Made by a program: the position numbers and the translations under genes
Virus record (IMG/VR): IMGVR_UViG_3300020185_000141
Span: 1-34,688 of that record
DNA length: 34,688 bases
Source: a virus
Strand: one strand, 5' to 3'
Shown: positions 2,617 to 18,476 of the stretch, one piece after another
How the letters are laid out: each line of letters starts with the position of its first letter
Position numbering within the stretch: position 1 is the first letter of the stretch
The notes under the pieces: generated by a model
The model's input: the letters and a program-made list of their open reading frames with translations, nothing else
Told to the model about the DNA's origin: nothing
The model's database searches: none

Positions 2617-3462
2617 ATGTTTTTTAATACGAAAGATGAATCAGTTTTAAGAGATGGTGTCATACAGACCACCATGCAAGGATTTGTAAAAGGACACATG
2701 GCATCTTCAATGAATGCAGTGTTGTCTAAGTCAAATTCCAGAAAAGGTAAATATCTAAGACACGCTTCTCCTGAAGTAAACATGTCTGAAGAAATGATAT
2801 CACGTGGACCAATGTTCTGTAATGCCTTGACATATAAAGGGTATAAAAATATCTTGTTTGTAGGTCATTTCAATGATGGACAAACTCACTGGATGTTAGA
2901 TAAGTTTGCTGGACGGTTAATAGACTTGATTCCACCAGAACGTGAATCTTCACATTCATTTCCAGATATGAACATTATTGCTCAGTCTATACCTCTAATG
3001 ATGAAGATGTATGGATACGAAATTGATTTCACGGTTGCTAGACCACCAGAGTCAAAACATAAAGGTTCTATGCACGAACTATACGAAGCCTTTGGTATAG
3101 ACAAATGCTCGATAGAATCTTCACATCAATACAAACATGGACAAACATCTTGGAGTCTAAATGGTGAACACGAGAAGTTCGACGCAGTCGTATTCCTTGG
3201 TGTACCTATGCAAGACCAAGGAGTTGGTTTCGAAGAAGATCAAGTCCGTGAGATATTTGCACCTATGTGCACACCAGAATTTGATATGGTTGACATTTAC
3301 TACGGTGTACCTTCCGCAGTTAAATGGTTCAATGGTGAAGAGAAAGATAGCAAGACAATGGTCGACACCGCATTTGCCCTACGTTCAGCATGGGACGATG
3401 AAATGTCAGAAGGCCGCCCGGAAGAATGCGACATCATGCAAAGAATGATTAAAGTATTCTAA
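2617..3462 (+). CDS. Hypothetical protein, 281 aa
   Basis: The ATG at 2617 is preceded by AAGGGA at good spacing. The protein starts MFFNTKDESVLRDGV and alternates hydrophobic and charged segments, for example NILFVGHFNDGQTHWMLDKF near residue 85 and a mixed alpha/beta region with FDAVVFLGVPMQDQGVGF near residue 195. It has no membrane segment or signal peptide. The beta-strand/loop pattern could fit a Rossmann-like or SAM-binding fold, but no motif proves it. It shares the late transcript with the 84-aa gene and ends just before a strong terminator. Confidence 0.85.
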   Translation: MFFNTKDESVLRDGVIQTTMQGFVKGHMASSMNAVLSKSNSRKGKYLRHASPEVNMSEEMISRGPMFCNALTYKGYKNILFVGHFNDGQTHWMLDKFAGRLIDLIPPERESSHSFPDMNIIAQSIPLMMKMYGYEIDFTVARPPESKHKGSMHELYEAFGIDKCSIESSHQYKHGQTSWSLNGEHEKFDAVVFLGVPMQDQGVGFEEDQVREIFAPMCTPEFDMVDIYYGVPSAVKWFNGEEKDSKTMVDTAFALRSAWDDEMSEGRPEECDIMQRMIKVF

Positions 3463-9380: not shown

Positions 9381-10251
9381 AATAAGTCTTCATCCTCTCT
9401 TCATACTCTACTGATTTTCTTTTGGTTTGATGTAATAGTTGTTCTATATTTTCTATCCACCACCAGACACCCATTTCTTCTTTGGATAATTCCGGATTGA
9501 TTCTTAAAGCATTCGGTGTGTGGTATTTAGTCACACCTTCACCACTGATTACTGCGAGAGGTCGTGCAAAGTTCTTTGCGACATAATGCCAGATACCGTC
9601 GTAACAGATGACCATCCTCGATGTGGATATAAGATGCATTGCCTCAGATGCAGGTGTACGATATGACAACTCGTGCATTTTAAAACCCAGACTTGTAAAG
9701 TGATTGATCAGATGGTCCCAGTCAGAGTTGTCAAAGATTCGTTTCCATGTACGGGGTTTCTCAGCATTCCACGTAGGACGCCAGAACACAATTCGATCTG
9801 GGTCATAGTCTTGAAATGCGTCCTGTCGGAATATCCAATCATTGCAAGGAGCATCTCCTCCAATCGCATCGGTATAATATCCCGACTCGAACATAAAACG
9901 ATTCTTTTGTCCATGACTGTTTATCGCTGCAATTCTACGTTCACCATTTGTTTCCAAAACAACATCATCATTAAACTTCCAGTGTTTGTATCGACCTTGA
10001 GCATTGAAGATGTGATGTACCTCCACACGTTCTTTCTGGTGATAAAAGTTGTGGATGTAGTCGCATCGTTCTATAATAGTTTCAGGGTCTTCGAAGTGAT
10101 GTAGATAGTCTGGTCCGTGCTCCCAGTGAAGTTCTAAGTTTATCTTACTGACATCGTGGTCGGCCGCATATTTGTGACACGAATTGAGTGCCCACATAAA
10201 ATCACCGACACCTGGAGTTCCTCTCCAAGTAACTAGTTCAGATGGTCTCAT
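9367..10251 (-). CDS. GT9-like glycosyltransferase (heptosyltransferase type), 294 aa
   Basis: The N-terminal glycine-rich turn TWRGTPGVGDFMWALNS matches the start of ADP-heptose:LPS heptosyltransferases (GxGDxLxxxP region). The C-terminal part has ASEAMHLISTSRMVICYDG followed by WHYVAKNFARPLAVISGEG, the donor-site pattern of GT-B family 9. The likely role is transfer of a sugar to a lipopolysaccharide-like or virion acceptor. The start (MRPSELV) shares one base with the upstream stop. Similar genes occur in T4-like cyanophages. Confidence 0.82.
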   Translation of the reverse strand: MRPSELVTWRGTPGVGDFMWALNSCHKYAADHDVSKINLELHWEHGPDYLHHFEDPETIIERCDYIHNFYHQKERVEVHHIFNAQGRYKHWKFNDDVVLETNGERRIAAINSHGQKNRFMFESGYYTDAIGGDAPCNDWIFRQDAFQDYDPDRIVFWRPTWNAEKPRTWKRIFDNSDWDHLINHFTSLGFKMHELSYRTPASEAMHLISTSRMVICYDGIWHYVAKNFARPLAVISGEGVTKYHTPNALRINPELSKEEMGVWWWIENIEQLLHQTKRKSVEYEERMKTYYGND

Positions 10252-12619: not shown

Positions 12620-12627
12620 TATTTATA
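12620..12627 (-). promoter_or_regulatory. T4-type late promoter
   Basis: TATAAATA on the minus strand lies between the terminator of the upstream early operon and the carbamoyltransferase start, giving a leader of about 20 nt that includes GGGTGA as ribosome binding site. Confidence 0.78.
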
Positions 12628-12635
12628 TCAAACAT

Positions 12636-12659
12636 AAAAAAAGGACTCCGAAGAGTCCC
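12636..12659 (-). terminator. Rho-independent terminator with TTCG loop
   Basis: GGACTC-TTCG-GAGTCC followed by seven T residues on the minus strand. It closes the HAD nucleotidase operon 30 bp after its stop and insulates the late promoter at 12620. Confidence 0.93.
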
Positions 12660-12688: not shown

Positions 12689-13264
12689 TTACTTTCCTGT
12701 TACGTACTCATATATATCTTTCCAGTTACGCATCAGGGGGAAATCTGTATCTTTATTGTAAGTATGTTCCATAACGACAGACTCAAGTCCCAGTCGTGCT
12801 CCAACTTCTGCATTCTCAACTTTATCTTCTACCCATAGGCATCCACTATCACGGTAGAATTCCAGTGCTTCGTCTTTATCGGCTCCAGTATCTAGATAGA
12901 TATATTTCTCAAAGACGGTAGGACCAAACAACTCGCATAAGTTCTTGGTGCGTAAGTGTTGTGCATATTCGTCGTTACTCAGAGAAGTGATTGCGTGGAA
13001 CACATATCCGTGTTCTTCATGCAACTTCCGGACATATTTGATTGCGTCTCTTAGAGGTGGCAACTTTCGAATCTGCGCACTCTCATTAAACATGCGACAC
13101 AATCTCTTTCTAGCAACACGGTCTACAATTCCAAACATTTCTCCTATATCGTATACTTCTGGTTTAACGATATTGAAGTCATGATGGTTCATCCATTGAT
13201 GAAAACTGTACATCCAGTCCAACAGTACTCCATCACAGTCTACTAATATTACTTTATCTTTCAC
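12689..13264 (-). CDS. HAD-family 5'(3')-deoxyribonucleotidase-like phosphatase, 191 aa
   Basis: Motif I is VDCDGVL with the catalytic Asp9 and Asp11. Motif II is AITSLS near residue 93, the lysine of motif III is in TGADKDEAL, and motif IV is WVEDKVENAEVG near residue 148. These are the four HAD motifs in order, and length fits NT5C-type deoxyribonucleotidases, which dephosphorylate nucleoside monophosphates. It may tune the nucleotide pool alongside the NrdA/NrdB pair. It overlaps the 58-aa gene by 4 nt and ends at a terminator, forming a two-gene early operon. Confidence 0.9.
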   Translation of the reverse strand: MKDKVILVDCDGVLLDWMYSFHQWMNHHDFNIVKPEVYDIGEMFGIVDRVARKRLCRMFNESAQIRKLPPLRDAIKYVRKLHEEHGYVFHAITSLSNDEYAQHLRTKNLCELFGPTVFEKYIYLDTGADKDEALEFYRDSGCLWVEDKVENAEVGARLGLESVVMEHTYNKDTDFPLMRNWKDIYEYVTGK

Positions 13265-13437
13265 ACAACACCCTCTTCTCTGACTTTGTTCATTATAACA
13301 TACACTTCCTTAGAAGTAAAGCCCTCATTCATCAGGGAAATCATTAATTGCCCCCAGTCGGGGTTCTCTAGTTGATATATGTAGTGGTTAACTAGGTCGG
13401 TGGCCAACTCTATCTTGGTGGCATTTGAATCTTTCAT
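13261..13437 (-). CDS. Hypothetical protein, 58 aa
   Basis: The ATG at 13437 is chosen: AGAGG lies seven bases upstream, separated by a T-run. The in-frame GTG at 13452 lies inside the hairpin arm and is less likely. The protein, MKDSNATKIELATDLVNHY followed by a helical tail with GFTSKEVYVIMNKVREEG, looks like a small helical, possibly DNA-binding protein. It leads the early operon with the HAD nucleotidase. Its ribosome binding site lies in the 3' arm of a terminator-like hairpin (see findings). Confidence 0.78.
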   Translation of the reverse strand: MKDSNATKIELATDLVNHYIYQLENPDWGQLMISLMNEGFTSKEVYVIMNKVREEGVV

Positions 13438-13486
13438 AAAAAAACCTCTCACATTTGAAGTACCATTATACTACTATATGAGAGGT
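13438..13486 (-). terminator. Terminator-like hairpin that also masks a ribosome binding site
   Basis: Minus-strand arms at 13476-13486 and 13442-13452 pair over 11 positions (AACCTCTCATA with TGTGAGAGGTT, one G-U), with a 23-nt loop and a run of six T residues. In a transcript arriving from upstream it could terminate transcription and hide the AGAGG of the next gene. Confidence 0.7.
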
Positions 13487-13492
13487 TTGTCA
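13464..13492 (-). promoter_or_regulatory. Perfect sigma70 promoter inside the hairpin loop
   Basis: TTGACA (13487-13492), 17-nt spacer, TATAAT (13464-13469) on the minus strand, preceded by AATAAGTG. The 5' arm of the hairpin is the promoter spacer, so transcripts begun here lack that arm and cannot form the hairpin. Confidence 0.9.
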
Positions 13493-13513
13493 ACACTTAT
13501 TTTGAAAATATAT

Positions 13514-13678
13514 TTAATTAATTTCGGTTTCTATGCGGTTACGAAGTGACTGTAATAAAGATATCTTTTGAGCAATGATATAAAAATTAGGGTTAGAGTT
13601 TTCGGTAGAATTCATCTCTTCCATACAGTTAAGATGTTCTTCTTGTATGATGGACAACACATTTTCTTTACATGTCAT
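13514..13678 (-). CDS. Hypothetical protein, 54 aa
   Basis: The start MTCKENVLSIIQEEH at 13678 forms an ATGA overlap with the stop of the upstream glycosyltransferase and is preferred over an in-frame ATG at 13699. The product is acidic and helical, with a likely short coiled coil (IAQKISLLQSLRNRIETEI). It is the last gene before the hairpin at 13438-13486. Function unknown. Confidence 0.68.
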   Translation of the reverse strand: MTCKENVLSIIQEEHLNCMEEMNSTENSNPNFYIIAQKISLLQSLRNRIETEIN

Positions 13679-14523
13679 GGTACTAGTGCCCTTTGCCAAA
13701 ATGTAGTTTTGAAACGTCTATTCTTCCAGTGCTGTACCATGTCGACCTTCCACTCACCACCTGTGTAGTGACAGAACTTTGCCTTCTCAAAGAACTCATC
13801 TTCGGATGAATAGTGAGGACTGTCGTTCCATGTCTGGTCGATGGTCTCCACATCGAACTCATGTTTCATCAACTGCGCAGAGATGTACGGTTGATCGTTC
13901 ATGATAGACATGTGGAAGTCACCAGTGTAACACCAGTCTTCCCATGACATGAAGAGTTCTCGTGCACGTAGACGTGCCTCCTTGGACCACAAGACTACAC
14001 CTGTATTCATGATAGTTAGTTTGGATGGACGGTTAGGTGGCATTGCAGGGACTATAGGACAGTCATGCATTTCAAACTTGCGACAGAAATTACGGTAAGT
14101 GTCTTCTTTGTAATCCCATGAGTTGTATCCACCACCACTTGCAGTAACGAAATCTGACTCCAGTACACCGTAGACTTCTGCTCCCGAATCCATCTGATCA
14201 AAGATGTTCTCTTCAGTGTTGACTACAATGTCTGTGTCAACGAACAGTAGGTTATCGTACTGGTCAAATATAGGATCTAACCAGACACGTGCGCATTCAT
14301 GCAATAGTGATGTCGAACATCCATGTCCCTTTGTCGCAACACGTTCATCAGAGTAGATGTGCGATGCTCCAATCTTTTCTGCGTACTCCTCGAATGAAGT
14401 ACGTGAAATATCTGCCACTTCTTTATATAGTGAAGAACGAGAACCGTCCCAACCTTTTATGTCACCACGTTCGTCAACGGCATCACTCACGATCATATAT
14501 TGAAATATTACATTATTTGACAT
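13675..14523 (-). CDS. Putative glycosyltransferase (GT-A, DTD motif), 282 aa
   Basis: The ATG at 14523 has GAGAAGG upstream; the TTG two codons earlier is rejected. LLFVDTDIVVNTEENIFD near residue 95 has the DxD of GT-A glycosyltransferases. MNTGVVLWSKEARLRARELF and DQPYISAQLMKHEFDVETID resemble GT8 and GT34-like acceptor-side motifs, and FCHYTGGEWK may provide a metal-binding histidine. The transferred sugar is unknown. It overlaps the lysozyme gene by 11 nt. Confidence 0.8.
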   Translation of the reverse strand: MSNNVIFQYMIVSDAVDERGDIKGWDGSRSSLYKEVADISRTSFEEYAEKIGASHIYSDERVATKGHGCSTSLLHECARVWLDPIFDQYDNLLFVDTDIVVNTEENIFDQMDSGAEVYGVLESDFVTASGGGYNSWDYKEDTYRNFCRKFEMHDCPIVPAMPPNRPSKLTIMNTGVVLWSKEARLRARELFMSWEDWCYTGDFHMSIMNDQPYISAQLMKHEFDVETIDQTWNDSPHYSSEDEFFEKAKFCHYTGGEWKVDMVQHWKNRRFKTTFWQRALVP

Positions 14524-16461: not shown

Positions 16462-16469
16462 TATTTATA
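16462..16469 (-). promoter_or_regulatory. T4-type late promoter flanked by C-run and G-run
   Basis: TATAAATA on the minus strand. Upstream of it lie two runs of six C (16474-16479 and 16486-16491), and downstream the G5 ribosome binding site (16446-16450). Read-through transcripts could pair C-run with G-run; transcripts begun here could not. Confidence 0.75.
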
Positions 16470-18447: not shown

Positions 18448-18476
18448 ATTATACTTGTTTATGAAACAAATGTCAA
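18448..18476 (-). promoter_or_regulatory. Perfect sigma70 promoter (early type)
   Basis: TTGACA (18471-18476), 17-nt spacer, TATAAT (18448-18453) on the minus strand, preceded by AATAAGTG as at 13464. It faces away from the plus-strand promoter at 18562; the approximately 200-bp region between 18414 and 18621 holds both and no gene. Confidence 0.92.

Follow-up and report, generated by a model that had tools for sequence, protein, structure and literature searches.

The window analyzed here is a stretch of viral DNA of 34,688 nucleotides (positions 1 to 34,688 of IMG/VR record IMGVR_UViG_3300020185_000141). Its minus strand carries a two-gene unit. The first gene (13264 to 13437) is a 58-aa open reading frame (ORF) of unknown function, also found in relatives, with its ATG at 13437. 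The second (12689 to 13264) encodes a 191-aa phosphatase/nucleotidase-like protein that matches PHROG 420, and some of its tblastn hits are annotated as phosphatase or 5' nucleotidase. The unit is closed by an ordinary intrinsic terminator, GGGACTCTTCGGAGTCCT followed by a T run (12642 to 12659, minus strand), which was found by the terminator scan. Close behind this terminator, a copy of the late-type promoter motif TATAAATA at 12627 precedes a carbamoyltransferase gene; here terminator and promoter (12659 to 12620, minus strand) lie side by side and are not nested.

Upstream of the unit, the same strand carries a lysozyme gene and a glycosyltransferase-like gene; the latter label comes from the earlier note on this DNA, and the gene product had no PHROG match. 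A small minus-strand ORF (13514 to 13699) is present at the end of the glycosyltransferase gene, directly upstream of the element described below; it occurs in some relatives and is absent from L006 and L007. By its motif, a late-type promoter, TATAAATA, is located at 16462 to 16469 (minus strand), upstream of the genes leading into the element, and the terminator scan listed no other minus-strand terminator between 16469 and 13493. Given this late-type promoter, the lack of a listed intervening terminator, and the closing terminator downstream, the element lies between what is probably a late unit and the two-gene unit, whose promoter is of the early type.

A consensus promoter nested in a hairpin

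On the minus strand, the element reads TTGACA AACCTCTCATATAGTAG TATAAT GGTACTTCAAATGTGAGAGGTTTTTTT ATG, and the whole cassette occupies a site of about 60 bp. The earlier note had claimed a perfect sigma70 promoter, and sequence matching confirmed an exact TTGACA-17-TATAAT consensus at 13493 to 13465 (minus strand), embedded in the extended motif TTTTCAAAATAAGTGTTGACA, which also occurs upstream of many promoters in relatives. There are five exact matches to this consensus in the window, all on the minus strand, and eight sites with at most one mismatch, compared to 0.44 expected from shuffling. Two more of the exact promoters, at 18476 to 18448 and 17842 to 17814 (minus strand), share an upstream AATAAGTRTTGACA motif with it. 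In both, ATAAATTA follows soon after the −10 box (17807 and 18441), resembling an overlapping late promoter, and the promoter at 18476 to 18448 has TTGTTTcatAAACAA in its spacer as well.

The inverted repeat around the promoter, also recovered by folding and by covariation, has 13-nt arms that form 12 Watson-Crick pairs and one G-U pair. The 5' arm, AAACCTCTCATAT (13476 to 13488, minus strand), consists of the last A of the −35 hexamer and 12 nt of the promoter spacer. The 3' arm, ATGTGAGAGGTTT (13442 to 13454, minus strand), holds a Shine-Dalgarno-like GAGAGG (13445 to 13450), 7 nt before the ATG, and the first three residues of a T7 tract (13438 to 13444); these three pair with A residues at the start of the upstream (5') arm. 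The T7 tract, which accompanies the hairpin in relatives, would serve both as terminator tail and as the spacer between the Shine-Dalgarno motif and the ATG. From promoter geometry, transcription is predicted to start about seven bases past TATAAT, at 13456 to 13458 (minus strand), in the hairpin loop. The earlier note had described an 11-pair repeat followed by six T residues. Its repeat was found but proved longer, at 13 pairs; the partner it gave for 13442 to 13452 was off by two and is correctly 13478 to 13488, and the T run counts seven (13444 to 13438). It was right in taking the promoter spacer as the upstream arm and in placing AGAGG (13449 to 13445) in the downstream arm ahead of the ATG (13437 to 13435).

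We then compared the predicted folds of the two possible RNAs. An RNA with both arms (13495 to 13430) folds at −20.5 kcal/mol, compared to −9.6 ± 2.2 kcal/mol for shuffled sequences (z, −4.9), and none of 200 shuffles was as good. An RNA starting at 13458 folds at −2.5 kcal/mol (z, +1.6), with the Shine-Dalgarno motif predicted to lie outside any stable stem. These values agree with the proposal in the earlier note that a read-through transcript folds and an internally started one stays open. Thus, the sequence and predicted fold contain a stable stem followed directly by a U tract, as in an intrinsic terminator, and the Shine-Dalgarno motif is predicted to be enclosed in the read-through stem and free in the internally started RNA. 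The hairpin loop is 21 nt long, which is large for an intrinsic terminator and counts against reading the element as a composite promoter-terminator, but the folding predicts an inner stem of 5 pairs within it. The standard terminator scan of the window did not report the nested hairpin, because that scan permits loops of 3 to 8 nt only. Rfam covariance models gave no match up to an E value of 1 between 13000 and 14000.

Conservation and decay of the hairpin in relatives

The same locus in viral contigs retains the element. Across 12 distinct relatives, which are kin, so that events counted within the family are nonindependent, 93.6% of alignment cells were paired and double-sided changes were seen at 11 of the 13 pairs; for example, CCTCTCA/TGAGAGG in the window corresponds to CCTCTCC/GGAGAGG in L012. 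The covariation score was 0.599, compared to 0.292 ± 0.042 after shuffling, with none of 500 shuffles as high, in an alignment from which loops were excised and in which the stem served to fix the 3'-arm register, a choice that leans towards pairing. When the alignment was slid by 1 to 3 columns, the score was lower in every case. The covariation that the earlier note had proposed to look for is therefore present, with pairing kept by compensatory changes beyond the shuffled range. The uncompensated mismatches in homologous arms that it held would speak against its reading do occur in L013/L485, so that this objection applies in part.

In L013/L485, the T tract is broken as well, and for this reason their element appears to have decayed, not to have been misread. 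In L019, hairpin and T tract are both gone and the Shine-Dalgarno motif is kept; in phage C48C1, the promoter stands where the same operon begins, but no such hairpin surrounds it. The hairpin is thus not essential, since C48C1 keeps the promoter without it and it is broken in L013 and L019. Judged by sequence comparison, the element is real and conserved by pairing.

Termination or hiding of the ribosome site

The earlier note left it open whether the hairpin terminates the read-through transcript or hides the ribosome site. To relate hairpin and tail, we used a scan fixed on the promoter and a CC in its spacer, with the downstream sequence unconstrained. Of 12 distinct promoters whose spacer and leader form a strong hairpin, 10 had a tract of at least six T residues, compared to 1 of 31 promoters without such a hairpin. 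Because a terminator needs a tail and hiding of the ribosome site does not, this co-occurrence favors the terminator half of the proposal, and the evidence leans to intrinsic termination by a hairpin that covers the ribosome site as well. Termination and covering do not conflict, as the same stem closes the Shine-Dalgarno motif in transcripts that escape termination.

A hairpin that only hides the ribosome site, on the pattern of T4 e and soc except that the promoter is an early one, would leave a full-length, untranslated read-through RNA without termination. Precedent exists in T4 e, soc, 49, and I-TevI, where RNA from the upstream promoter includes both arms and its ribosome site is concealed (PMC3014915), and the Shine-Dalgarno motif does sit in the 3' arm, as it does in 18 of 22 like elements (see below). 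Nonetheless, the T tract accompanies the hairpin, seven T residues would be superfluous for hiding alone, and where the hairpin decays, in L013 and L019, the T tract is broken or gone while the Shine-Dalgarno motif stays. We therefore regard hiding without termination as unlikely and prefer a terminator that also covers the ribosome site.

Recurrence in phages and bacteria

To find further elements, viral contigs were scanned for TTGACA-17-TATAAT followed by TTTTTTNATG, and the output was joined with other viral loci, which gave 92 dereplicated promoter/T6NATG sites. In 22 of these, the 5' arm lies within the −35/−10 region, compared to a mean of 1.6 and a maximum of 5 in 300 leader swaps; the 22 sites are partly kin, with six sharing the gene context of the window and others sharing gene families, such as L211 and L221 (PHROG 27048). 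In 25 further sites, the 5' arm starts between −10 and +1, a class whose pairing the leader-swap control does not address, and only 2 of the 92 have both arms downstream of +1. The 3' arm holds a Shine-Dalgarno-like motif in 18 of the 22 spacer-arm elements and in 2 of the 25 sites of the −10-to-+1 class; the motif is present in 7 of 43 hairpin-free sites. All but one of the 22 spacer-arm elements lie ahead of an ORF of 40 aa or more, and among the genes that follow are members of the endolysin, MazG, HNH endonuclease, and metallophosphoesterase families. Arm sequences are unrelated between the recurring phage elements. The same pattern in bacterial genomes gave 4 spacer-arm sites of 115, a number that shuffles also reach, in a set that looks Firmicutes-dominated, which qualifies the comparison with viruses. 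By these sequence counts, therefore, the spacer-arm layout is enriched in phages.

Among sites of the −10-to-+1 class, L306, L253, L215, L301, and others have a terminator whose 5' arm begins at the −10 box or just after it, so that transcription is predicted to begin in the loop or where the arm ends. Several of them follow an apparent psbA end, with the stop codon inside TTGACA. Four sites of the class follow psbA-like gene ends as judged by a crude motif, which suggests that the class is less independent than it appears. For two proteins encoded behind nested elements, no homologs were found in isolated phages.

Genome-wide counts found few nested elements in T4, KVP40, C48C1, and the L006 genome; the 151-kb L006 genome has one, and so does the window. 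We therefore dropped the idea of a phage that uses a nested element at every unit. Chance was likewise rejected as the origin of the element, since promoter matches, fold z score, covariation, and recurrence against leader swaps all stand above their controls. Whether this "start inside stop" device, a sigma70 promoter within a terminator, with the start in the loop and with spacer and Shine-Dalgarno motif as arms, evolved repeatedly and independently in phages is in our view evenly balanced. If it did, the device would terminate and silence all incoming transcripts except its own, and genes would switch transcription unit within about 60 bp.

A boundary between exchangeable modules

On the upstream side, relatives carry either the ORF at 13514 to 13699 (U1) or the end of the glycosyltransferase gene (U2), and on the downstream side either the 58-aa ORF (D1) or a 65-aa ORF (D2). 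All four combinations were found: U1-D1 in the window and L002, U2-D1 in L006, U2-D2 in L007 and L178, and U1-D2 in L027, in which the hairpin sequence differs. This is the pattern expected from recombination at the element, and by sequence the cassette marks a recombination boundary. The four combinations could also be taken to mean that the element serves chiefly for recombination, as a common promoter-hairpin block by which neighboring genes are swapped, and that regulation is secondary. That account, which we consider very unlikely, leaves the compensatory changes, the T tract, and the position of the Shine-Dalgarno motif unexplained; moreover, the single element in L006 offers no multicopy substrate for recombination. 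Least probable of all is a DNA operator, in which a dimeric repressor would bind the inverted repeat over spacer and leader and so turn the promoter off: its symmetry does overlap the promoter core, but we rejected it because the arm sequences vary freely while pairing is kept and are unrelated in other phages, the distance between the arms varies among relatives (L027 and L128 compared to the window), and the T tract persists with the repeat.

Proposed mechanism

We consider it likely from the sequence that the element is a composite promoter-terminator of the PeSL kind (promoter early stem-loop), which ends late read-through and starts a two-gene unit at one site in a T4-like phage. The model builds on the promoter, hairpin, tail, covariation, hairpin-tail association, and recurrence found in the sequence, and we infer the start position, the termination efficiency, and the early/late timing. 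Polymerase arriving from the lysozyme and glycosyltransferase genes would copy both hairpin arms, the 13-pair stem would form at the U7 tract, and most read-through transcripts would end just before the ATG; those that escape would hold the Shine-Dalgarno motif closed in the stem. Host sigma70 polymerase at the nested promoter would start in the loop, so that its RNA would lack the 5' arm, would not be terminated, and would keep the ribosome site open. The 58-aa ORF gene would thereby depend on its own early-type promoter, shielded from late read-through. The logic of "early on, late off" in the earlier note is plausible, with early and late assigned by motif only; it fits the late-type TATAAATA at 16469 and the lack of another listed terminator before the element.

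The model offers a testable rule for insulating phage genes from read-through, in which the origin of an RNA decides whether the hairpin exists. Phage operon maps may miss such boundaries, because terminator finders limited to short loops overlook them. Furthermore, the layout recurs before endolysin, MazG, HNH endonuclease, and phosphoesterase genes, which suggests that the design is common and could serve as a ready-made insulator for constructs.

Comparison with known systems

The PeSLs of T4-like phages, called "composite conserved promoter-terminator motifs" in a title by their authors (Arbiol et al. 2010, doi 10.1093/gbe/evq006; Comeau et al. 2014, doi 10.1093/gbe/evu129; both as cited in PMC4503421), are described as dense in regions of shuffling (PMC4503421). 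The window element resembles them in combining an early-type consensus promoter and, by sequence and fold, a stem-loop terminator within a single short intergenic stretch that marks a mosaic boundary, with genes swapped on either side. PeSLs occur in many copies per genome, whereas the window and L006 have one element each, and for this reason we say that the element works like a PeSL and do not file it as one.

Features of the same kind occur in RB49, which we take to be a PeSL phage. There, promoters lie inside terminator-like hairpins near record positions 3192 and 112351, and in the deposited record of an RB49 relative the site equivalent to 3192 is annotated as a terminator. In the window element, the spacer forms the 5' arm, the Shine-Dalgarno motif lies in the 3' arm, and the T tract directly abuts the ATG, whereas at these RB49 sites the Shine-Dalgarno motif is separate and follows the T tract. 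Many RB49 promoters (L434 to L436; e.g., record positions 121708, 115005, and 123266, minus strand) have a complete hairpin inside the −35/−10 spacer, such as TTGACA GGGGATCggtGATCCCC TATAAT, without a T tract. At 9453 of RB49, the 5' arm of a hairpin lies just downstream of the −10 box. This and the −10-to-start hairpins of other phages are like the window element in that transcription is predicted to begin in the terminator loop or where the 5' arm ends; they differ in that the 5' arm covers −10 to +1 and not the spacer, and the 3' arm is mostly without a Shine-Dalgarno motif.

The comparison with T4 soc and e drawn in the earlier note is apt for the hiding of the ribosome site in read-through RNA, but the closer known relative is the PeSL cassette. 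In T4 e and soc, the inner promoter is late, TATAAATA, and early or middle read-through is silenced, whereas the inner promoter of the window is the sigma70/early-type TTGACA-17-TATAAT, and its hairpin is followed by a U tract and is terminator-like. In I-TevI, the 5' portion of the structure has been described as late-promoter proximal (PMC3014915). Altogether, the mechanism is known in kind; what is new is an economical arrangement in which one arm is supplied by the promoter spacer and the other by the Shine-Dalgarno motif, together with its recurrence across phages.
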